A program made the position numbers and the translations under genes. 64,000 nt of DNA from Thermodesulfobium narugense DSM 14796 (GTDB lineage: Bacteria; Thermodesulfobiota; Thermodesulfobiia; Thermodesulfobiales; Thermodesulfobiaceae). The notes under the pieces are model-generated. The model saw nothing but the letters and a program-made list of their open reading frames with translations. It searched no databases and was not told the DNA's origin. Position 1 is the stretch's first letter, and each line of letters opens with the position of its first letter. Below are positions 27,771 to 42,521 of the stretch, one piece after another. Location of the stretch: positions 1,685,421 to 1,749,420 of the forward strand of contig NC_015499.1 in NCBI RefSeq assembly GCF_000212395.1, given 5' to 3'.

Positions 27771-27806
27771 ATGACCCCATAAATTCACTTATTCCGACTT
27801 TTTTTC

Positions 27807-27822
27807 GACTTATTGATAAGTC
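27807..27822. promoter_or_regulatory. palindrome GACTTAT-TG-ATAAGTC over a candidate -35
   Basis: A perfect 7-bp inverted repeat whose centre contains TTGATA (27813-27818), a plausible -35 for the plus-strand operon (followed at 18 bases by a weak GATAAA). An overlapping outer repeat, ATTCCGACTT (27791-27800) with AAGTCAGAAT (27819-27828), has one mismatch. A regulator bound here would cover the promoter. The response regulator of the same operon is a candidate. Confidence 0.45.
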
Positions 27823-27869
27823 AGAATAATATCAAAGATAAAAATTAGTAATGAAAGGTGGTAAGTAAG

Positions 27870-28298
27870 ATGGCAAGAAAAAAGAATGTTTTTGTCGTTC
27901 TTAAGGATACAAAGCAAAATCAGGCAAAACTAATCAAGGAAACAAGAAATTATGTAGCAACAAATAATATCGAGAAGGTCTATTTGTTGAAGATTATAGA
28001 CAGATCCGAAGATCTTGGCGTATTTAACCCTGAAGCAGAAGAAATTATCGTCACAAGAGCTGAAAGCGAAATTTCAAAGTTTATGAACGAATTAGGTCAG
28101 ATCGACTGCCAGGTGGAAGGGATCGTAAAGATTGGTTCCTATCACGACAGGATTGAAGAATTAGCAAAAAAGTTTGATCCCGAAGCAATAATAGTTCAAA
28201 GCTCCAAGTTAAGCGGAATAAAGAGAATCTTTCTTGGCAACACAGCTTCGGATGTCATAAACAACGCTCACTGTCCCGTAATTGTTGTCGGCTCTTAA
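27870..28298 (+). CDS. universal stress protein family protein
   Basis: A 142-residue single USP-A-like domain. The C-terminal GIKRIFLGNTASDVINNAHCPVIVV matches the ATP-binding G-x(9)-G-N/S-T loop and the closing beta strand of the family, which suggests nucleotide binding. AAAGGTGG precedes the ATG at 27870 by 8 bases; a GTG four codons upstream overlaps that SD. It is the first gene of the TauE/two-component operon, 48 bases before the small membrane protein. Confidence 0.82.
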   Translation: MARKKNVFVVLKDTKQNQAKLIKETRNYVATNNIEKVYLLKIIDRSEDLGVFNPEAEEIIVTRAESEISKFMNELGQIDCQVEGIVKIGSYHDRIEELAKKFDPEAIIVQSSKLSGIKRIFLGNTASDVINNAHCPVIVVGS

Positions 28299-28346
28299 CC
28301 AGTTTAGAAACGAATTTATAAATAAATTTTAAGGAGGGAAAGAAGA

Positions 28347-28589
28347 ATGAAAAAGGAAAATAATAAGAAGTTAATACCCTTAATAATATGGGGTACTCTT
28401 TCACTAAGTTCTTATCTGATGATTTTCCTATTTCAAAATGAGTTATTGTTTTATTCTACAAGGGGTGGTATTTTTTCAGTAGTTCCATTACTCTTTGCAT
28501 TTTATTTCTCTTTTGTACATGGAGCTTTCGCAAGTTATTTGTTGCCATTTATTGGCGTTGAAGCAATAATAAAGAAGGAGGCGCATTAA
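28347..28589 (+). CDS. small membrane protein accompanying the TauE/SafE transporter
   Basis: An 80-residue protein with a basic N-terminus and two hydrophobic segments (about 9-28 and 41-66). AAGGAGG lies upstream, and its stop is one base before the transporter start, so the two are made together. I recognise no family; a small transporter subunit is the simplest idea, from context only. Confidence 0.7.
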   Translation: MKKENNKKLIPLIIWGTLSLSSYLMIFLFQNELLFYSTRGGIFSVVPLLFAFYFSFVHGAFASYLLPFIGVEAIIKKEAH

Positions 28590-28590
28590 A

Positions 28591-29670
28591 ATGGAAGGAA
28601 ATTCTATGGGGATCTTGTCAAACTTTATCACTCTTGACCCTACAAACATGCTTTTTCTTTTGTTTGTCGGCTTTGTTGGTGGATTGGTTAGCGGCTTTAT
28701 AGGATCTGGCGGCGCATTTGTCCTAACGCCAGGAATGATGAGCATTGGAGTTCCAGGAACAATAGCAGTTGCAAGCAATATGTGCCACAAGTTTCCAAAG
28801 GCAATGGTTGGAGCATACAAGAGGTGGAAGTATGGTCAGGTAGATATAAAGTTAGGTCTTATTATGGCGATATCAGCAATACTTGGAGTTCAGGTAGGCA
28901 TACAGATTCAAGAAGCCATATTAAAGACCTGGGGAAACGCTGGTTCAAACCTTTATGTCAGTACCATGTTTATAATTGTTTTAACGATAGTTGGAACTTA
29001 CGTATTTAAGGATGCCGTAAATATGGCAAAGTCAAAGAACACAAAAGAAGAGTCTACCGCACTTGCAAAGAGAATACAAAGTATAAATATACCGCCAATG
29101 ATATATTTTGATAAGATCGGAGCAAAGATATCATTCTGGGTTACATTCCCAATAGGATTTTGTACAGGACTTCTTGCAGCAACTATAGCAGTAGGAGGAT
29201 TCATTGGAGTTCCTGGAATGATTTATATATTGGGCGCTACAAGTACTGTAGGCACAGCAACAGAGTTAGTTATAGCCTTTGTAATGGGTCTGGTTGGATC
29301 TGTAAAGTGGGCAATGAACGGAATGATAGATATTAGACTAACTCTTATAATTCTTGCTGGATCTTTAATTGGAGTACAAATAGGAGCTGCTGCCACAACA
29401 TTTGTAAAGCCGTATCTTATAAAGTTTGTAATGGGCTTCATAATGCTTTTGGTAGCCGGGTCAAGAATCCTTGCAGTTCCTCAGTATTTAAGTGAGCTAA
29501 ACATAATTCATCTTGAAAAGCAAGCTTTGAGCGCACTCGATCAGACTAGCTTTATGATAATGAGTCTAACGCTTCTTGCTGGTGCAATAATAATAGTATT
29601 TAGTATGGTAAGAGGAAAAAGAGAATTCAGGAGGACAAGTGCTATTGCACAGGTTAAGATAAACGATTAA
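28591..29670 (+). CDS. TauE/SafE-family sulfur-oxyanion or sulfonate transporter
   Basis: Polytopic membrane protein with about 8-9 TM helices over 359 residues. The two family repeats are visible: GGLVSGFIGSGGAFVLTPGM near the N-terminus and GLLAATIAVGGFIGVPGMIY in the second half. A central hydrophilic loop (about residues 140-180) splits them. Family members move sulfite, sulfate, thiosulfate or sulfonates. Given the PhnD-type sensor system downstream and the likely sulfur metabolism, a sulfur oxyanion is a reasonable guess, but substrate and direction are not readable. GGAGG precedes the ATG. Confidence 0.88.
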   Translation: MEGNSMGILSNFITLDPTNMLFLLFVGFVGGLVSGFIGSGGAFVLTPGMMSIGVPGTIAVASNMCHKFPKAMVGAYKRWKYGQVDIKLGLIMAISAILGVQVGIQIQEAILKTWGNAGSNLYVSTMFIIVLTIVGTYVFKDAVNMAKSKNTKEESTALAKRIQSINIPPMIYFDKIGAKISFWVTFPIGFCTGLLAATIAVGGFIGVPGMIYILGATSTVGTATELVIAFVMGLVGSVKWAMNGMIDIRLTLIILAGSLIGVQIGAAATTFVKPYLIKFVMGFIMLLVAGSRILAVPQYLSELNIIHLEKQALSALDQTSFMIMSLTLLAGAIIIVFSMVRGKREFRRTSAIAQVKIND

Positions 29671-29679
29671 AATAATTAT

Positions 29680-30624
29680 ATGTACAAAAAATTATTAGTT
29701 GCATATGACGGTTCATTAAGTAGCAAAAGCGCACTAAAGGAGGCACTAGAAATAAGTGCCTCCTTTAACTCATATATTACGCTTATAAGCGTATTTGACT
29801 TACCTACAGAGATATTCGGAATATCGTCTCTGGAATCAGAAAGGATTGAATCAGAATTATTTTCAATGCTTCTAAACGCCTTCGAGCAATCAAAAGAGAA
29901 AAACAATAAAATAAATGCTTTCTTTGCTACAATTGCAGGTGATAGTGCAACTTACACAAACATCGAATCAAACGAAAAAATTCAAATACCCAAAAAGGTA
30001 AGTTCACCAGATCATGCAATAGTATCGTTCGCAGAGTTTCTAAAGCCCGATCTAATATTGATAGGCACGAAGGGATACAATAGAGTGATAAACGTTGGAA
30101 GTGTAACTGTAGGCGTAATTAGGGATGCTCCGTGTGACGTATTAACTATAAAAAATTATAAAGAGGGCAAGTTTGAAGAAAAGTACAAAAATATACTTCT
30201 TGCCTTTGACGGTTCTGAAACTTCAGTTAACGCGCTAAAAAGGACTATTAGCATAGCAAAAAGGTTTAAGTGGGATATTACTGCAATTCACGTCTACCCT
30301 CTTCTTACTGAAATAAACCTTTTTTCAAGCGTTCACACAAAAGAAGTTTTACTCCAAACTTCAAAACATATTCTTGAAAGAGCAAGAGAAATAGCTTATA
30401 AGGAAAATTATCCTATTTATACCCACTCAGGGGGGTTTGGTGACCCTGCACAATACATTGTTAATTATGCTACAGAAGAAAATTATGATCTAGTAGTTCT
30501 AGGAACACAAAATCCAAATACCGTAAAAAAAGTTCTTATAGGAAGCATTGCATACAGAGTTATTTCAGAAGCTGATTTTCCTGTTTATTGCATCCCCATA
30601 AAGAGCCTGAAAAAAGCGCTGTAA
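29680..30624 (+). CDS. tandem universal stress protein (two USP domains)
   Basis: Two USP domains of about 150 residues each. Domain 1 (YKKLLVAYDGSLSSKSALKEA ... LILIGTKGYNRVINVGSVTVGVI) and domain 2 (YKNILLAFDGSETSVNALKRT ... LVVLGTQNPNTVKKVLIGSIAYRVI) each end in a G-x2-G-like ATP-binding loop. The gene starts 9 bases after the transporter stop without an SD. USP proteins often sit beside transporters as ATP-dependent regulators; that role is inference. Confidence 0.88.
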   Translation: MYKKLLVAYDGSLSSKSALKEALEISASFNSYITLISVFDLPTEIFGISSLESERIESELFSMLLNAFEQSKEKNNKINAFFATIAGDSATYTNIESNEKIQIPKKVSSPDHAIVSFAEFLKPDLILIGTKGYNRVINVGSVTVGVIRDAPCDVLTIKNYKEGKFEEKYKNILLAFDGSETSVNALKRTISIAKRFKWDITAIHVYPLLTEINLFSSVHTKEVLLQTSKHILERAREIAYKENYPIYTHSGGFGDPAQYIVNYATEENYDLVVLGTQNPNTVKKVLIGSIAYRVISEADFPVYCIPIKSLKKAL

Positions 30625-30631
30625 ATAAATC

Positions 30632-31597
30632 ATGAAACAAAAAAATCCCATAAGAGAAAAATTTTTAAGTTATAAAGATATCTTTTTTATGCTATTTTTT
30701 ATAGTCTTGTTGTTTGTCATTGGCGCACTTTTAATTATTAACGTTAACTTCTTCCCTACTTCTTCTTTAAATCTAGATCTAACCAAAAAATCTCTTCCTG
30801 TTTCCACTGAAAATGAACCAAACACAATTGGCATAGTTGTATCTTCTACTTTGCCAATCGAGGAAGTTACCTTAATTTACAAACCCCTAATAATATATCT
30901 TTCAAAAGCAACAAATAAACATATTGTTCTTTTTACAAGAAAGACCTATTCAGAAGCACTAGATTCTATGCTTGCAGGCGATGCACAAATTGGCATCATA
31001 GGCTCAGGCGCCTTTTACGTTGATAAAAATAAGTTAGATTTGCTGGCAGTACCTATGATAAACAATAAAACATATTATAAATCATATATTATAGCAGAAA
31101 AAGAAAATATAAAAAATTTATCTGACTTAAAGGGAAAGACAATAGCTTTTACTGACCCATATTCCTTTGCTGGGTATATCGTATTGGAAAATTATCTTAG
31201 AAAAAATGGCCTTAACCTTAATTTTTTTTCAAAACACTTTTTTACCTTTAGTGTCAATTCATCAATAGACGCTCTAAAAGAGGGCTTGGCTGATGCAGCT
31301 ACTATTGACAGTAATACATATGAGCAATTAAAAGAGAAAAATCCAGAAATTTCAAACTCATTACACATAATATGGGAGTCCCCAATTGAGATTCCAAATC
31401 CGCCAGTAATAGCCATAAAGGATATGGATTATAAAACAAAACTTCAATTTCAAAAACTTTTTATGGATATGGATAAAAGCACAGAAGGGAAAAAAGTTCT
31501 TAGTATATTGGGCTATGATAAGTATGTTGAAGTAAATAGCAACTTTTTTGAACCAATTTCAGAATGGTTAGGTAAAAATAATGAAAATAAGTTTTAA
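30632..31597 (+). CDS. membrane-anchored PhnD-like periplasmic substrate-binding protein
   Basis: One N-terminal TM anchor (about 18-42) is followed by a periplasmic PhnD/TAXI-type binding domain: IGIVVSSTLPIEEVTLIYKP, GDAQIGIIGSGAFYV, NLSDLKGKTIAFTDPYSFAGYIV and DAATIDSNTYEQL. There are no permease or ATPase genes beside it; a histidine kinase gene overlaps its 3' end by 17 bases. That context favours a sensory rather than a transport role. In the known sensors TtrS and ThsS (tetrathionate and thiosulfate) a PhnD-type domain is part of the kinase itself; here it is a separate protein. Confidence 0.83.
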   Translation: MKQKNPIREKFLSYKDIFFMLFFIVLLFVIGALLIINVNFFPTSSLNLDLTKKSLPVSTENEPNTIGIVVSSTLPIEEVTLIYKPLIIYLSKATNKHIVLFTRKTYSEALDSMLAGDAQIGIIGSGAFYVDKNKLDLLAVPMINNKTYYKSYIIAEKENIKNLSDLKGKTIAFTDPYSFAGYIVLENYLRKNGLNLNFFSKHFFTFSVNSSIDALKEGLADAATIDSNTYEQLKEKNPEISNSLHIIWESPIEIPNPPVIAIKDMDYKTKLQFQKLFMDMDKSTEGKKVLSILGYDKYVEVNSNFFEPISEWLGKNNENKF

Positions 31598-32987
31598 AAT
31601 CGCTATATCTGTCATTTTACCATCTCTTATATGTACTCTTGCTCTCTTACTGTTTATGAAATATACCCTCACCCAGAACCTACTTGAAAATCTAAACAAA
31701 AGAATGCAAACTACTTGTTCAGATATTGAATATTCAATAATAGACAGCATTGCCACAAATAACAGCATCGAAGCCAATAGAATTCTAAAAAATATAAAAC
31801 AACAAAACAAAGAGATTGTGTATATATATATCCAGAGACCATTTGGTAGAATTCTTGCATCAACATTTGAGGACGGTTTTCCAATAGAACTATTAAGTCT
31901 TACAAGTTCGAATGAAAAATTAGTAAGAACATTTAATACCAAAGAGGGCACATTGTACGATCTTAACTATCCGCTTTTAGGTGGTAGTTTTGGAACAATT
32001 CACATTGGTTATTCTCATAATTTGATAAAGGATAGGATCAACAACTTTATATTACAATCTCTGTTTTTCAGCTTTATAGTTATTGTAGTTTCTTTAATGC
32101 TTTTTCTCTTTTTGACCCGTTCAATAGTTAGAAATATAAACAAACTAATTTATCTTGCAAAAAGAGTCTCAGTTGGAGATTTTGATACAAGAGTTGATAT
32201 AAGATCTAAAGATGAGCTAGAGCTACTCGCTAAATCAATGAATTCTATGGCAAACGACTTAAAAATTCACAAAATTGAGAGATTGAAGATGGAGGAAAGA
32301 CTAAAGAAGGAAGAAGAAGAGAAAAAGAGAAAGGAGCTTTTAAGAAGGGAGATTTCCTCTTTAGAAAAGGAAAGAAAAAGAATTTCTATGGAGATACACG
32401 ATGGAGTTATGCAAACTTTAGCATCAGGGCAGATTAACCTTTTTCACGTTATAAATAGCGACAAAATTCCAGAAGATCTCAGAGAAAGGTTAAAAATTTC
32501 ATACAACATCTTTAAAGATGCCACAAATGATTTAAGAAACCTGACAATAAATCTTAGACCACGCATCTTAGAAGAAGTTGGCCTAAAAAGGTCTATAGAA
32601 ACACTGCTCGAAAGGGCAGAGCAAAGCAATAATCTTGATGTAGAATTAATTTTTGATATTAGATCAAAACTTCAGGATTATCTGGAATTATCATTGTTTA
32701 GAATAATCCAAGAAGCTATAAATAACGTAATAAAACACGCTAACGCAAGTTTCGTAAGCGTTATTATAAAAGAAAATGATGATAGAATAGAACTAACAAT
32801 TGAAGATAATGGTTCAGGTTTTGAAATAAATTATGAAGACAAAAAATATACCAATAGTTTTGGACTTATAGATATGAAAGAAAGAGCAGAAAGTCTTGGA
32901 GGTTCATTAAACATAGAAAAAAAGAAGGAAGGTGGCACAAAGATTTATGCAAGCATCCCATTCAAAAAAGAAGGTTCTAATAGTTGA
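31581..32987 (+). CDS. NarL-family sensor histidine kinase (HisKA_3)
   Basis: Inner-membrane kinase with TM1 (about 8-26), a small periplasmic loop of about 130 residues, TM2 (about 158-178), a HAMP domain (about 180-232), a charged coiled coil, the dimerisation domain with phospho-acceptor His in RISMEIHDGVMQTL, and an ATPase domain with the DNGSGFE G1 box and EAINNVIKHA N box. Its gene overlaps both the PhnD-like protein and the response regulator, which implies one signalling unit. The short periplasmic loop probably docks the separate PhnD-like protein. Confidence 0.92.
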   Translation: MKISFKIAISVILPSLICTLALLLFMKYTLTQNLLENLNKRMQTTCSDIEYSIIDSIATNNSIEANRILKNIKQQNKEIVYIYIQRPFGRILASTFEDGFPIELLSLTSSNEKLVRTFNTKEGTLYDLNYPLLGGSFGTIHIGYSHNLIKDRINNFILQSLFFSFIVIVVSLMLFLFLTRSIVRNINKLIYLAKRVSVGDFDTRVDIRSKDELELLAKSMNSMANDLKIHKIERLKMEERLKKEEEEKKRKELLRREISSLEKERKRISMEIHDGVMQTLASGQINLFHVINSDKIPEDLRERLKISYNIFKDATNDLRNLTINLRPRILEEVGLKRSIETLLERAEQSNNLDVELIFDIRSKLQDYLELSLFRIIQEAINNVIKHANASFVSVIIKENDDRIELTIEDNGSGFEINYEDKKYTNSFGLIDMKERAESLGGSLNIEKKKEGGTKIYASIPFKKEGSNS

Positions 32988-33642
32988 CGATCACGCTCTG
33001 TTAAGAGAGGGATTAAAATTTCTGATAAGTCAATCAAAAGAAGATTTTGAGGTTGTAGGAGAAACCCCTAGCGCTTCTGAAGCCCTGAAATTAGTAAAAA
33101 AACTTAAACCCGATATCGTAATATTAGATCTATCCTTATCTGATGGAAGCGGTCTTGATATAATAGAGCCGATAAAAAAAATTTCTCAAAACACAAAAAT
33201 TCTTGTTCTAAGCATGTATCAGGATGAGTCTGTTATAGTCCAAACCCTAAAAGAAGGCGCATCAGGTTTTATTCCGAAAAGTGAGGTATCAGAAGAGTGT
33301 ATCCAAGCGCTAAAAATTATCTCAGAGAGCGATGATCTGTATGTACCCGCATCATATTCCAGAATAGTATTAAAAGGGCTTCTTTCAGATAACGCCTCAA
33401 AAACCCTTAGCTCAAGAGAAGATCAGGTATTAAGGCTGTTGGCTTTGGGATATAGCGCCAAAGAAATAGCCCAAACGCTTCAAATTAGCCCCAAAACAGT
33501 TCAGACCTATAGGCAAAGAATAACCACCAAGCTTGATTTAAGAAGAAGATCGGATATTGTAAGATATGCTATTTCAAAAGGGCTTCTAAAAGAAGAAGAA
33601 ATAAAAGGGATAGTTTTTCCAAAAGACGACGAGTTAATCTAA
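32947..33642 (+). CDS. NarL/FixJ-family response regulator
   Basis: The receiver domain (about 10-125) has LIVDDHALLREG, the phospho-acceptor Asp in DIVILDLSLSDG and the conserved Lys in FIPKS. A LuxR-type helix-turn-helix follows at about 155-220 (LSSREDQVLRLLALGYSAKE, then ISPKTVQTYRQRI). The ATG at 32947 is preferred; a GTG at 32932 lies in the SD region. It overlaps the kinase gene by 41 bases and converges with the minus-strand sensor gene (4-base overlap, no terminator). Probable targets are promoters in this cluster. Confidence 0.92.
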   Translation: MQASHSKKKVLIVDDHALLREGLKFLISQSKEDFEVVGETPSASEALKLVKKLKPDIVILDLSLSDGSGLDIIEPIKKISQNTKILVLSMYQDESVIVQTLKEGASGFIPKSEVSEECIQALKIISESDDLYVPASYSRIVLKGLLSDNASKTLSSREDQVLRLLALGYSAKEIAQTLQISPKTVQTYRQRITTKLDLRRRSDIVRYAISKGLLKEEEIKGIVFPKDDELI

Positions 33643-36245
33643 AGTTTTCTCAAGCTTCCAAGAGCGCCTCTAAAAACCCTGCCTTCATATTTTGCAACTA
33701 TTCTCATCTCGAAGTTTATGTACTCTTCCTTATCGTTTTTAATACCAACCTCAAAAACAGCGTCCTTTTTATCTCCTTTCAAAATTGACATAAACAAAAG
33801 AGTAAGTTTCTCTTTCTCAGCAGGAGATGAAAAGTCAACAAAAAATTTGTTAAGGAAATCTCTCGGCTGAAGTTTTGTATAATCATATATTTTTTCACTT
33901 ATAAAGCTAAATCTTCCAGAATAGTCAAGTTCAAATACCACGTCACTTATTAATCTAATTATTTCAAAGTATTTTTCTTCAATATTCTTTGCCAAATTAT
34001 AAGCACTCTTTAGCTCAGTAACGTCGTAGCTCAAGCTTATCAGCCCCTGAAGATTTCTATTCTCATCAAAAATTGGCACCTTTTGGGTGAGAACACTTAT
34101 AGATTCTTTATTAGGTTTTCTGAGCATTTCCTCCTGAAAGTGAACCATCCCAAGCTTTACTGCTGATCTATCTAATTCAAGATTCTTTTCTGCCTGTTCT
34201 TTGTCAAATATTTCGTAATCAGTGTGGCCAATAATCTCTTTCCTGTCCTTTCCCAGCAATTTAGCAAAATTATTGTTAACAAAAATATATATGCCATCTT
34301 TATTCTTGTAATAAATATAACCTGGTAGACTATCAAGGAGGATATTTAGTTCTCTTTGCTTCTGAAGAAGAGCCTCTTCAGAGCGCTTCTTTTCTGTTAT
34401 GTCTCTACAAACGAGAAAGTATATTCTCTTATCATTTTTGTATACAGTATTAGTCTTAACATCAATGACCTTGATGTGATTGTTGACATCAATAGCCCTG
34501 ATTTCAAAAGACATCCCTTTTATATTTTCTTTCAGTACTTTTTCAATTAGAGACTTTGCATAATCTCTGTCTTCAGGATACACAAAGTTTATTACATCTT
34601 TACTTATTACATCTTCAGGTTTGTATCCAAAAGTTCTATAAAGCTCTTCATTTGACTTTATAATTCTAAAATCTGAATCAAGTACTAATACAACATCTTT
34701 TATGTTGTTAAATAGCGTCTCGTATTCTTGTTCTCTTTCTCTTAGAGAGTTATGAACTCTCTCTCTTTCTGTAACTTCAGAGATTGTCAGCAGTATAAAA
34801 TCCTCTACCCTACCAGAAATCTTTTTTGCTTTTCCTTCAAAAGCAACCTTTGCTCCATTCTTTGTATTGAGATAGAATTTAAAAGGAAAGATAGAATCTT
34901 GTTCTGTAGTTAAGATTTTCTCAAATAACAATTTAAACTTTTCTCTTTCTTCATTTTCTAAAAAGTTCAAAAAGTTTTTGGCTTCAATGTCGTTAACGTC
35001 AGAAAATAGCATAGATAAAGAGTCGTTTTCAAAAAGTATTTCGCCGTCTATATCTACAACCAGAATCATATCGCTTGAGTTATCTAAAAGGAGTCTAAAA
35101 TATTTCTCGCTTTCAGAAAGCTTTTTATATTCTCGCCTTTTTTGAATTAATATAATCACAAGCAAAGCAATTATTAGAAGTAACATTAAAGAAACTATTG
35201 AAGAATAAAGGATTGCCTTTGAATATCTCTCAAAAAATGTTTCTTGATGATTAATTATCTTGCTGTTTGGAGGAAGTAATTCCTTTTTTATGTTGAATTT
35301 TTTCAATAAATTTTCATCAAAGGCATAATAGTTTGACTCAGAACTATTTATAATCTTAGAGTTCTCCCAACCAGCACCGTTATCAAAAAGATAATCGTAT
35401 GCTAACTTACCCACAATCTTGCCCTGTTCAAGCCCACTAGTAATCATACCACCAACTATTCCGTTACCCAATTGATAGTCAAACGTTCCAAAAATTGGTA
35501 CGTTTACTCTCTTATAAAGTTCATGTGTGGGAGCAGATCCAATTAGGTCATCACCATATTTGTCGACAGTATGAGCTATTAGATCCAGAACAAGGATATC
35601 CTTCGGCTCTGAATTAATCTTATTTATTATTTTCTCTAAATTATTTGAAACAAAATATTCGTTTGATATATCGTTATGTGATGCAAAAAAATCGTCAAAT
35701 TGCTTTTTGAAATAAGACGCTACACTTTCATCTGCAACGCCCAAAATCTTTTTTGCATTTGGAAAAAGCTTTAGCATAAGAGAAAGAGTAGATTCTAAAT
35801 TCTCTTCTTCCTTCACACCATAAACTTTATATGGAATAAAATTTTTTATATCGTCGCTATAGGTATTTACACCACAAAAAAATATTGGAGGGTTTCCAAA
35901 CTGATTTCTTCTTTCTAAAGCATATACAAAAGCTGGATCGTCTGTTGTAACTATTGCATCAAATTTAAACCCTGAGTATTTTTTCATCAAAAAATTAGAA
36001 AAATCATCCAAATATCTCTTTGAATTAAACCTTTTCGAATCCATATTTTCTATAAATATCTCAGGTGAAGGGAATATAGAATTAAGCTGGGACAAAATCC
36101 CCTCTTGTTCTTCAATAGTCCAAATATAATCCTGGCTATAAGAGTTCAAAATCAAAACTTTCTTGCTTGCTAAACCCTGAGAATAAGCAATTGAAGTAGA
36201 GAAAGCTAAAAAGAAAAAAAGACTTATTATTAATCTTTTAAGCAA
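33639..36245 (-). CDS. ABC_sub_bind-like and four-PAS membrane sensor lacking an output domain
   Basis: A signal/anchor sequence (1-22) is followed by a periplasmic COG2984-like substrate-binding domain (about 28-320; KKVLILNSYSQDYIWT, DAIVTTDDPAFVYAL), one TM segment (about 345-368) and four PAS domains at roughly 378-495, 505-620, 630-745 and 760-868. The third contains GYIYYKNKDGIYIFVNN and the others carry SDMILVVD, DVVLVLDSD and DVVFELDYSG openings. The frame ends immediately after the last PAS: no kinase, GGDEF, EAL, methyl-accepting or HTH domain follows. TTG start with AAAGGAGG four bases upstream. It may work with a partner protein or be a truncated receptor. Confidence 0.8.
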   Translation of the reverse strand: MLKRLIISLFFFLAFSTSIAYSQGLASKKVLILNSYSQDYIWTIEEQEGILSQLNSIFPSPEIFIENMDSKRFNSKRYLDDFSNFLMKKYSGFKFDAIVTTDDPAFVYALERRNQFGNPPIFFCGVNTYSDDIKNFIPYKVYGVKEEENLESTLSLMLKLFPNAKKILGVADESVASYFKKQFDDFFASHNDISNEYFVSNNLEKIINKINSEPKDILVLDLIAHTVDKYGDDLIGSAPTHELYKRVNVPIFGTFDYQLGNGIVGGMITSGLEQGKIVGKLAYDYLFDNGAGWENSKIINSSESNYYAFDENLLKKFNIKKELLPPNSKIINHQETFFERYSKAILYSSIVSLMLLLIIALLVIILIQKRREYKKLSESEKYFRLLLDNSSDMILVVDIDGEILFENDSLSMLFSDVNDIEAKNFLNFLENEEREKFKLLFEKILTTEQDSIFPFKFYLNTKNGAKVAFEGKAKKISGRVEDFILLTISEVTERERVHNSLREREQEYETLFNNIKDVVLVLDSDFRIIKSNEELYRTFGYKPEDVISKDVINFVYPEDRDYAKSLIEKVLKENIKGMSFEIRAIDVNNHIKVIDVKTNTVYKNDKRIYFLVCRDITEKKRSEEALLQKQRELNILLDSLPGYIYYKNKDGIYIFVNNNFAKLLGKDRKEIIGHTDYEIFDKEQAEKNLELDRSAVKLGMVHFQEEMLRKPNKESISVLTQKVPIFDENRNLQGLISLSYDVTELKSAYNLAKNIEEKYFEIIRLISDVVFELDYSGRFSFISEKIYDYTKLQPRDFLNKFFVDFSSPAEKEKLTLLFMSILKGDKKDAVFEVGIKNDKEEYINFEMRIVAKYEGRVFRGALGSLRKL

Positions 36246-39700: not shown

Positions 39701-40981
39701 TTAGAATTCATAAGCTGATTCCTCGTGTTCACTTTCGTCAAGACCCTTGATCTCAGATTCTCTTGAAACCCTTAGGCCAAAAAACCTTTGAATAAGTAAA
39801 CCAATTAAGAAAGTTATTGTGAAGCAATAAATAATAGCTACAACCACGCCTATTATTTGAGATACAATCTGAGTAGCTGAACCAAAAAGGAGACCCTTTG
39901 CTCCGTTTATCAAAGGATTAGCAAAGATGCCAAGTGCTAAACTCCCCCAAATTCCAGAGATGCCATGAATTCCAAAAACGTCAAGAGTATCATCATAATT
40001 GAACTTTGGTTTAATAAACGTAATCGCAAAATAGCAAAGACAAGATGAAATTATACCAATAACAAGAGCGCTTGAAATATTAACATATCCTGCGTCAGGT
40101 GTAATTGCGCCAAGACCAGCTATACAACCTGATATTGCCCCTAAAACAGTTGCCTTATTATCTTTTATGAGATCTATTGCCATCCATGTCAAAAGACCAC
40201 TAGATGCAGCAATATTTGTATTTATAAAAGCATCTACTGCAAGTTGACCCGAAGAAAGAGCGCTTCCTGCATTGAACCCAAACCAACCAAACCATAAAAG
40301 ACCTGCACCAATAACAGAATAGCCTAATTGATGAGGTAAAATCCTCATATCTTTTCTCCTACCAAGAATTAGGCACATTGCAAGTGCAGAGATCCCTGCG
40401 CTAATATGAACCACAATGCCCCCAGCAAAATCTAATACTCCTAATTTGGCAAGCCATCCGTCACCCCATACCCAGTGGGCAAGTGGAATATAGACAAAGG
40501 TAACCCATAAAACTGTAAAAATTATCCAACTCTTAAATTTTATTCTCTCTACAAGGGCTCCAGAAATTAGAGAGACAGTAATAGCCGCAAATGTCATCTG
40601 ATAAACTGCAAAAAGTATTGTGGGTATTGAACCAGAAACTGAAGTAATATGAGAGAAGAAAACATCTGTAAAACTACCTATTATTCCAAAAAAATCTTTG
40701 CCAAAAACTAGTGGAAAACCAAAAACAAACCATATAACAGAAACAATCGCGTATGAAACGATAGACATCAACATCGTGTTAAGAGCGCTTAATTTCTTAA
40801 CCAGTCCGCTGTAAAAAAGAATTAATCCAGGAAATGTCATAAGCATTACGAGTGCAGTAGAAACCATCATCCAGGAAGTGTCAGCCTTGTTAATGGTATT
40901 TAAACTTTGAGCAAAAGCTGACTTCACAGATAGATCCAAAACAATAAACAAAACTGAAAAAACTAACAAAATTCTTTTCAA
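39701..40981 (-). CDS. amt: ammonium transporter (second copy)
   Basis: Amt/Rh family channel: a signal-peptide-like N-terminus (1-24), then 11 TM helices. Conserved [49 protein letters not shown] and [16 protein letters not shown] with the pore His are present. The closing residues EHEESAYEF match the paralogue upstream. TTG start with AAAGGGG seven bases upstream. It is a close relative of the gene at 41103, with a 121-base gap between them that holds a large hairpin, so expression of the two may differ. Confidence 0.93.
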   Translation of the reverse strand: MKRILLVFSVLFIVLDLSVKSAFAQSLNTINKADTSWMMVSTALVMLMTFPGLILFYSGLVKKLSALNTMLMSIVSYAIVSVIWFVFGFPLVFGKDFFGIIGSFTDVFFSHITSVSGSIPTILFAVYQMTFAAITVSLISGALVERIKFKSWIIFTVLWVTFVYIPLAHWVWGDGWLAKLGVLDFAGGIVVHISAGISALAMCLILGRRKDMRILPHQLGYSVIGAGLLWFGWFGFNAGSALSSGQLAVDAFINTNIAASSGLLTWMAIDLIKDNKATVLGAISGCIAGLGAITPDAGYVNISSALVIGIISSCLCYFAITFIKPKFNYDDTLDVFGIHGISGIWGSLALGIFANPLINGAKGLLFGSATQIVSQIIGVVVAIIYCFTITFLIGLLIQRFFGLRVSRESEIKGLDESEHEESAYEF

Positions 40982-41010
40982 AACAATACCCCTTTCTGCT
41001 ATGAAATTTT

Positions 41011-41063
41011 TTAATCACAAAGCAAAGGCAACCATAATTAGGTTACCCTTGCTTTGTGATTAA
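41011..41063. repeat. long inverted repeat between the two amt genes
   Basis: TTAATCACAAAGCAA pairs perfectly over 15 bp with TTGCTTTGTGATTAA, and ACC/GGT plus nearby G-C pairs extend the stem. In the direction of the amt genes the stem is followed by AAAAAATTTC rather than a T run, so it is not a canonical terminator. A transcript-stability or processing stem between amt genes is plausible. Confidence 0.6.
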
Positions 41064-41102
41064 CTTAAAGTAATTCTTATTTAAAAGTTAAAATCAAAAA
41101 AT

Positions 41103-42521
41103 TTACAAACCATAAGCGCTCTCTTCGTGAAGGCTTGCATCAAGACCCTTAATCTCATCTTCAGGCTTTACTCTTAAACCTATGGTCACATCTATAAGCT
41201 TGCCGATAATTAATGTCATTACGAAACAATAGCCTCCTGTTGCAAGTATCGCCAGAACCTGTATACCAACTTGAGATGGATTGCCGAATATAAGGCCTGT
41301 CCCAGCGCTGTTAATCCATGGGCAAGCAAATATACCTGTTGCAAGAGCACCCCAGATTCCAGAAATACCGTGAACACCAAAAACATCAAGAGAATCATCA
41401 TATTTGAAAAATGGTTTTAGGTATGAAACAGCCAAGAACGAAAGAACTGATGCACCAACACCTATAGCAAGAGCACCTGCGATATTTACAAATCCAGCAG
41501 CAGGCGTAATTGCAACCAAACCAGCTACTGCACCAGATATAGCTCCAAGAGCTGTAGCCCTGTGATCTTTTATAAAATCTAATGCCATCCATGTAAGAAG
41601 AGCCATTGCTGTAGCAGTGTTTGTATTGATAAATGCCGCACCAGCTAATTGTCCTGAAGTAAGAGCGCTTCCAGCGTTAAATCCAAACCAACCAAACCAT
41701 AAAAGACCTGCACCAATTATAGATATACCAAGTTGATGAGGCATAAGCCTCGTATCCTTTCTTTTTCCAATGAGTAGTGCTAGCGCAAGACCAGCTAAAC
41801 CTGCATTTATGTGTACAACCGTACCCCCCGCAAAGTCAAGAGCTCCAAGCTTCATAAGCCATCCGCCGCCCCATACCCAGTGAGCAATAGGAAGATAAAC
41901 CACAGTTGACCAGATAAGAGCAAATAACATCCATGATGAAAATTTCATCCTCTCAATCACAGATCCAGATATGAGAGCTACGGTAATAGCAGCAAACGTC
42001 ATCTGAAACGCTGCGAATACGCTTGTAGGTATTGTCCCAGTAAGAGAATTTGTTTCAACAATATTATAGAAAAATGGACTAACAAATTGACCAATTATGC
42101 CGCCTACATCATTGCCAAAAGCAAGTGGATATCCAAAAACAAACCATGTTACGGAAATCAAGGCATAAGCACCGACTGACATCAACATCGTGTTTAATGC
42201 ACTACTCTTCTTTACCAAACCACCGTAAAACAGAGCAAGGCCAGGCATGGTCATAAGCATTACGAGTGCAGTAGAAACCATCATCCAAGCAGTATCGGCG
42301 CCATTAAGTTCGGGAGTAGTCGTAGCATCATCTGCATAACTAACAGAACCAAAACTTTGAATGATAATTAGGGAAAAAAGAAAATAGCCAGTAAGTAAGA
42401 TATATCTTAGATATGACGGAAGCGTTTTAAATAGAGGATTTGATTTCAAAGAAAAGGTTCTTATAATTAACATTATCAGAGTTATAAAAATAGTAGACAA
42501 GCCTTCAGGAACATAAAACAT
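41103..42521 (-). CDS. amt: ammonium transporter (PII-linked copy)
   Basis: Amt/Rh channel of 472 residues with the same hallmark blocks as its neighbour: [65 protein letters not shown]. It has an N-terminal extension of about 70 residues with two hydrophobic stretches (about 8-24 and 40-62) before the first Amt helix. The ATG at 42521 has AAGGAGGG at ideal spacing, supporting the long form. It starts 19 bases after glnK, the PII protein that normally plugs Amt when nitrogen is sufficient. Confidence 0.94.

Follow-up and report, generated by a model that had tools for sequence, protein, structure and literature searches.

We examined a seven-gene operon of Thermodesulfobium narugense DSM 14796 that lies in a 64,000-nucleotide stretch (G000:C1:1685421-1749420, hereafter the window) of its single-contig genome of 1,898,865 bases. 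The operon joins a transport unit, built around a TauE/SafE (TSUP) transporter termed TauE1, to a sensor cassette comprising a membrane-anchored PhnD/ArrX-like solute-binding protein, a histidine kinase and a NarL-type response regulator. With moderate confidence, we propose that this cassette is an extracytoplasmic oxyanion sensor, most likely for a sulfur oxyanion moved by the TSUP protein, and that it controls the transporter operon. Of the sequence evidence, the apparent duplication of the cassette onto two different TSUP units argues most strongly that the sensor goes with the transporter.

The sensor cassette occurs twice, on different TSUP units

About 106 kb away, a second copy (copy 2, locus L003) comprises another TSUP transporter (TauE2), a 264-residue membrane protein, a universal stress protein (USP), a binding protein, a kinase and a regulator, and is kept in all four genomes of the genus. 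Phylogenetic trees place the binding proteins of the two copies as sisters (support 95/91), and likewise the kinases (100/99) and the regulators (98/99). TauE1 and TauE2 are not sisters and fall in separate clades, each shared with another phylum (100/98 and 91/95); the inner branches of the TauE tree are long, which makes exact placement inside the TauE1 clade tentative. Because the sensor genes form sister pairs while the transporters belong to separate clades, the most parsimonious account is duplication of a single sensor cassette, each copy then settling on a different, older TSUP unit. Twice per genome and in four genomes, the binding protein is encoded by a separate, contiguous gene with no ABC permease, the arrangement of a binding-protein three-component sensor.

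Directly 3′ of the copy-2 regulator lies a CitMHS/ArsB-type permease gene (L003 11780-13018), which follows the regulator in the genus and may be a second transporter under the copy-2 sensor. Also beside copy 2 (L003 3889-5751) is a third TSUP transporter (TauE3) with its own 149-residue membrane partner and USP; TauE3 (61% identical) and the 149-residue protein co-occur in other phyla (L131 and L157).

Organisation of the operon

From the list of open reading frames (ORFs) and their Pfam matches (Table 1), all seven genes are open, intact and on the plus strand, in the order described earlier. The original prediction of seven plus-strand genes with short gaps or overlaps therefore holds: the kinase gene shares 17 bp with the PhnD-like gene before it and also overlaps the regulator gene after it, and the remaining intergenic gaps are 1-48 bp. 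Inside the operon, no terminator-like sites were found above chance expectation. The entire block is kept in three further Thermodesulfobium genomes, and the arrangement is therefore not chance. The longest ORF of the first USP gene starts at 27858, with an ATG preceded by a ribosome-binding site at 27870, and that of the regulator gene starts at 32932. TauE1 scores 124.9 bits against PF01925, well over the gathering score of 32.6, and so belongs to the TSUP family, while the 80-residue protein (TM80) matched no family in Pfam and NCBIfam searches. The G+C content of the window is about 32-39%.

Table 1. Features of the sensor-transporter operon, in window coordinates
Feature	Position	Strand	Evidence
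Candidate operator: inverted repeat TTATTCCGACTT-17 nt-AAGTCAGAATAA, upstream of first gene	27789..27829	.	function putative
USP, single domain (USP1), ATP motif absent	27870..28298	+	Pfam PF00582 1.9e-16
80-residue membrane protein TM80, two predicted helices, dedicated TSUP partner	28347..28589	+	locus conservation
TauE/SafE (TSUP) transporter, TauE1 type	28591..29670	+	PF01925 5.4e-36
Double-domain USP	29680..30624	+	two PF00582 domains, 1.3e-43; kept downstream of TauE1
Membrane-anchored PhnD/ArrX-like solute-binding protein, putative sensor subunit ‘X’	30632..31597	+	PF12974 (Phosphonate-bd) 9.6e-51
Sensor histidine kinase ‘S’: two membrane segments, small extracytoplasmic domain, HAMP, HisKA_3, HATPase_c	31581..32987	+	Pfam
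NarL-type response regulator ‘R’	about 32947..33642	+	Response_reg 1.1e-25, GerE 8.2e-18

The inverted repeat upstream of the first gene is a candidate operator. Four Thermodesulfobium genomes share an identical left arm, and within the 64 kb nothing but the two arms matches at ≤1 mismatch, a number of matches that is itself not above chance. The repeat does not recur near copy 2, which rules out one operator common to both copies.

The USPs had been cast as ATP-linked modulators. None of the Thermodesulfobium USPs examined (USP1, the double USP and those of copy 2 and of TauE3) has the ATP motif G-2X-G-9X-G(S/T), so ATP-linked modulation is not supported; the double USPs of L132 do carry the motif.

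The TSUP transport units are old and track DsrA

The presence of DsrA in the genome marks the host as a dissimilatory reducer of sulfite or sulfate. Profile counts give about eleven TSUP genes; 12 have been reported for T. narugense, together with no SulP, DASS or CysP, leaving TSUP-type transporters as the sole sulfate-uptake candidates (PMC5840216). Orthologues of TauE1 that are 58-63% identical occur in other DsrA-positive genomes. Within the phylum of genome G263, the TauE1 gene is flanked at all 15 inspected loci by genes of its own strand, immediately upstream that for the 80-residue protein and immediately downstream that for a double USP, and all five TauE2 loci have the 264-residue protein downstream; TM80 is also found directly upstream of a TSUP gene in L130-L132. 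That small membrane partners are kept with their TSUP proteins suggests that these transporters act as multi-subunit complexes. A search of the PDB found no sequence relative of TauE1.

The same 15 TauE1 loci contain kinase and NtrC-type regulator matches inside the same 16-17 kb, with no binding protein. Outside the genus, we found no binding protein next to a TSUP gene in 386 broadly sampled genomes and 128 from the phylum of G263, a search limited by draft contigs; in those 128 the two were never close together. Since the TSUP unit is kept across phyla with other regulators, the transport unit is old and its regulator exchangeable. Binding of response regulators to a TSUP operon has a precedent in Desulfovibrio vulgaris (PMC4641369). 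TauE1/2-type transporters are commoner in DsrA-positive genomes outside the genus (9 of 13, against 19 of 369; p = 9e-9), the genomes compared being phylogenetically non-independent.

These data bear on whether the sensor might instead detect a toxic or competing oxyanion (molybdate, tungstate or excess sulfite), with the TSUP unit serving as an exporter or stress module. The USPs suggest stress, the analogous USP/transporter cluster DVU0539-0545 of D. vulgaris has molybdate phenotypes (PMC10102598), and a role in sulfite export has been proposed for the TauE of Cupriavidus (PMC3949148, citing Weinitschke 2007). We nevertheless regard this explanation as unlikely, because the TauE1/2-type units track DsrA and because, with no other sulfate-uptake family reported in T. 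narugense, at least some of its TSUP proteins should import.

Two observations concern TSUP genes elsewhere. L097 (6230-7324) carries three tandem half-size TSUP genes (120, 116 and 121 residues), each covering roughly half of the TSUP profile, and L098 (5510-6541) and L099 (5795-6826) hold apparently identical TSUP genes (343 residues, equal scores) about 700 kb apart.

The binding protein resembles ArrX but has a changed pocket

By sequence, the nearest solved relative of the binding protein is ArrX (E 2.7e-34), followed by AioX (2.8e-31), and the copy-2 protein gives the identical order. The AlphaFold model (mean pLDDT 81.6) has one N-terminal helix at residues 14-35, also seen as a single hydrophobic helix in the hydropathy plot, and Foldseek searches with this model placed ArrX and AioX at the top, then PhnD. 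One of the matched ArrX structures is the pocket mutant Y138A, deposited with bound sulfate (6x8w), and the fold is therefore able to hold sulfate. The TtrS model matched marginally (E 3e-4), which rules out close kinship to TtrS/ThsS. The protein scores under the TIGR03431 (PhnD) cut-off, no PhnC or PhnE partner genes adjoin its gene, and PhnE has no match over cut-off anywhere in the genome; with relatives that pair with kinases, this rules out a leftover of a PhnD transporter.

The protein is thus, as originally described, a membrane-anchored PhnD-type protein without an adjacent ABC permease, and it is encoded by its own gene, overlapping that of the kinase, unlike the PhnD-type domains of TtrS and ThsS. 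Novelty of this split layout is not supported. It is of a known kind, because AioX and ArrX are separate sensor proteins that work alongside their kinase and regulator (PMC5908839), and HptA does likewise for hexose phosphate and its transporter UhpT (PMC8774646).

The AioX contact residues Y88, C106, Y131, S161, S163, H192 and D210 are near-invariant across the Arr/Aio-type relatives in our alignment. At these seven positions the window protein (copy 1) has Y, G, Y, S, A, V and D, and the copy-2 protein has N, T, F, S, S, S and N; the other aligned members of the genus are unchanged, except for V/I at one site. In every Thermodesulfobium row examined, Cys106 is replaced by Gly in copy 1 and Thr in copy 2, and His192 by Val/Ile in copy 1 and Ser in copy 2, with Asp210 and both tyrosines retained in copy 1. 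The loss of the pocket Cys and His rules out direct membership in the arsenic-sensing AioX/ArrX subfamily, and no Aio, Arx or Arr molybdenum enzyme genes were noticed by eye among the window ORFs. With these two residues missing from both copies and the two pockets unlike, the proteins probably respond to other oxyanions; we infer a separate ligand for each, in neither case an arsenic oxyanion.

It could still be argued that, like ArrX, the binding protein detects an oxyanion of phosphorus or arsenic, the TSUP transporter being incidental or moving a phosphonate-like compound. ArrX binds arsenate, and phosphate weakly (PMC5908839), and the Phosphonate-bd family assignment and the three residues retained in copy 1 fit such a ligand. 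The absence of Cys106 and His192 from both copies, the lack of a PhnE match over cut-off in the genome and the presence of the cassette on a TSUP unit twice make this improbable.

Kinase and distant relatives of the cassette

The extracytoplasmic domain of the kinase gave a weak sCache_3_2 match, and a structural search with this sensor domain returned no informative match. Relatives of the binding protein at E 1e-20 or better occur in 44 of the 386 genomes, four of them in this genus. In the best distant neighbourhoods (L073-L092), the usual order is binding protein, kinase and regulator, and many of the cassettes lie near what appear by eye to be respiratory molybdenum (molybdopterin) enzymes. 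None of these neighbourhoods has an adjacent TSUP gene or an adjacent ABC permease gene; conserved pairing with the latter, which would point away from a sensor, is thus not seen in them. Scans of genome contigs added a Deferribacteraceae locus (L021), where a relative occurs with Arr-like genes, and two Paenibacillus loci (L020 and L022), where a lipoprotein-like binding protein, a kinase and a NarL-type regulator lie beside a UhpT-like MFS gene, as judged by eye. A variant of the binding protein is found in L082 (8404-10128), where the gene for a 574-residue protein with two tandem PhnD-like domains precedes kinase and NtrC-type regulator genes; similarly long frames (567-603 residues) occur in many genomes of that phylum.

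The apparent molybdopterin neighbours would suit a cassette that senses a respired electron acceptor and mainly controls distant respiratory genes, with the TSUP unit as one member of its regulon, and the regulator could indeed bind elsewhere. We find this improbable, given that each cassette directly adjoins a TSUP unit, that the genes for kinase and regulator overlap and that the upstream repeat is local. Contiguity with the TSUP gene and membrane anchoring might also suggest that the binding protein feeds substrate to the transporter, in the manner of a binding-protein-dependent secondary transporter, while the kinase senses something else, a very improbable arrangement when relatives pair with kinases without any TSUP protein, TSUP units elsewhere lack the binding protein and the known homologues are sensors (PMC5908839).

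Proposed mechanism

In the oxyanion-sensor mechanism that we favour, the TSUP protein, its small membrane partner and the USPs would form the transport unit. Outside the membrane, the anchored PhnD/ArrX-like protein would bind an oxyanion, the likeliest being sulfate, thiosulfate or sulfite moved by the TSUP protein, and its bound or unbound state would be passed to the small extracytoplasmic domain of the adjacent HisKA_3 kinase, by analogy with HptA-HptS and with what is thought to occur in AioX-AioS. The kinase would then phosphorylate the NarL-type regulator, which would tune transcription of the operon, perhaps at the upstream inverted repeat. We infer the ligand, the direction of transport, the contact between binding protein and kinase, and the autoregulation. 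The three-part sensor acting on a TSUP transporter, as first suggested, gains from the cassette being duplicated with both copies on TSUP units, from the DsrA-containing host and from the tracking of DsrA by these units; its sulfur-oxyanion ligand stays presumptive.

Several points weigh against this mechanism. The same TSUP unit in other phyla has a different kinase, an NtrC-type regulator and no binding protein, and the binding protein is therefore dispensable for the unit. The Asp210 kept in copy 1 is an acidic residue, unusual for fully ionised sulfate, and the lost residues indicate a changed pocket, not which ligand it holds. No experiment is reported to have established what TSUP proteins transport in sulfate reducers (PMC4641369), and the structure model of the kinase is of moderate quality (pTM 0.38).

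More tentatively, one ArrX-like cassette may have given rise to two external sulfur-oxyanion sensors, retuned to two oxyanions and each controlling its own TSUP transporter with a dedicated small membrane subunit; we see this as a possibility rather than the expected outcome. If true, it would, as far as we know, be the first case of a sulfate reducer with an external circuit that senses sulfur oxyanions for transport, and sulfate itself would have its first binding-protein sensor. Both the way in which sulfate reducers perceive external sulfate and the identity of the transporter that imports it are open questions, and a purifiable binding protein, present in two copies with different pockets and on different conserved TSUP units, turns both into simple assays. 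The cassette is in any case a testable candidate for the sensing of sulfur compounds outside the cell in a heat-loving sulfate reducer.

Neighbouring genes

Convergent with the operon, on the minus strand (33639-36245), is a gene for a long sensor-like protein with PAS domains and without a kinase or other output domain. By eye, its N-terminus looks like a periplasmic ABC-substrate-binding protein; all four members of the genus have the same C-terminus, and the protein is therefore not truncated. Further along (39701-42521) lies what appears by eye to be a tandem pair of ammonium-transporter-like genes.

Comparison with known systems

The arsenic systems ArrXSR, AioXSR and ArxXSR are nearest by sequence and fold, and likewise have a separate PhnD-type binding protein beside a kinase and a regulator. 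They differ in that Cys106 and His192 are lost here, the binding protein is held at the membrane by an N-terminal helix, and the putative target is a TSUP unit rather than a molybdenum oxidoreductase. HptASR of Staphylococcus aureus, which responds to hexose phosphate, shares the placement of binding protein, kinase and regulator beside the transporter served, its separate binding protein controlling its own transporter UhpT (PMC8774646). The Paenibacillus loci L020, L022 and L023 resemble HptASR, and their kinases align with the kinase described here over the full length; the transporter there looks, by eye, like an MFS protein of the UhpT type, and the pocket residues differ. TtrSR and ThsSR, for tetrathionate and thiosulfate, offer a likeness in PhnD-like sensing of sulfur compounds (PMC5408782), but there the PhnD domain is fused to the kinase.

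Also in a sulfate reducer, DVU0539-DVU0545 of D. vulgaris places a kinase and regulator over a USP, an anion transporter, a small membrane protein and a further USP (PMC10102598), although its transporter is of the PSE family, its operons are divergent and it has no binding protein. The TSUP proteins of sulfate reducers (TauE/SafE, CysZ-labelled) have their Pfam family in common with TauE1, which is set apart by its dedicated small membrane partner, USPs and binding-protein sensor. The operon therefore has a known sensor design, of the AioXSR, ArrXSR and HptASR kind, and what is new is its TSUP target in a sulfate reducer and, probably, a new class of ligand.

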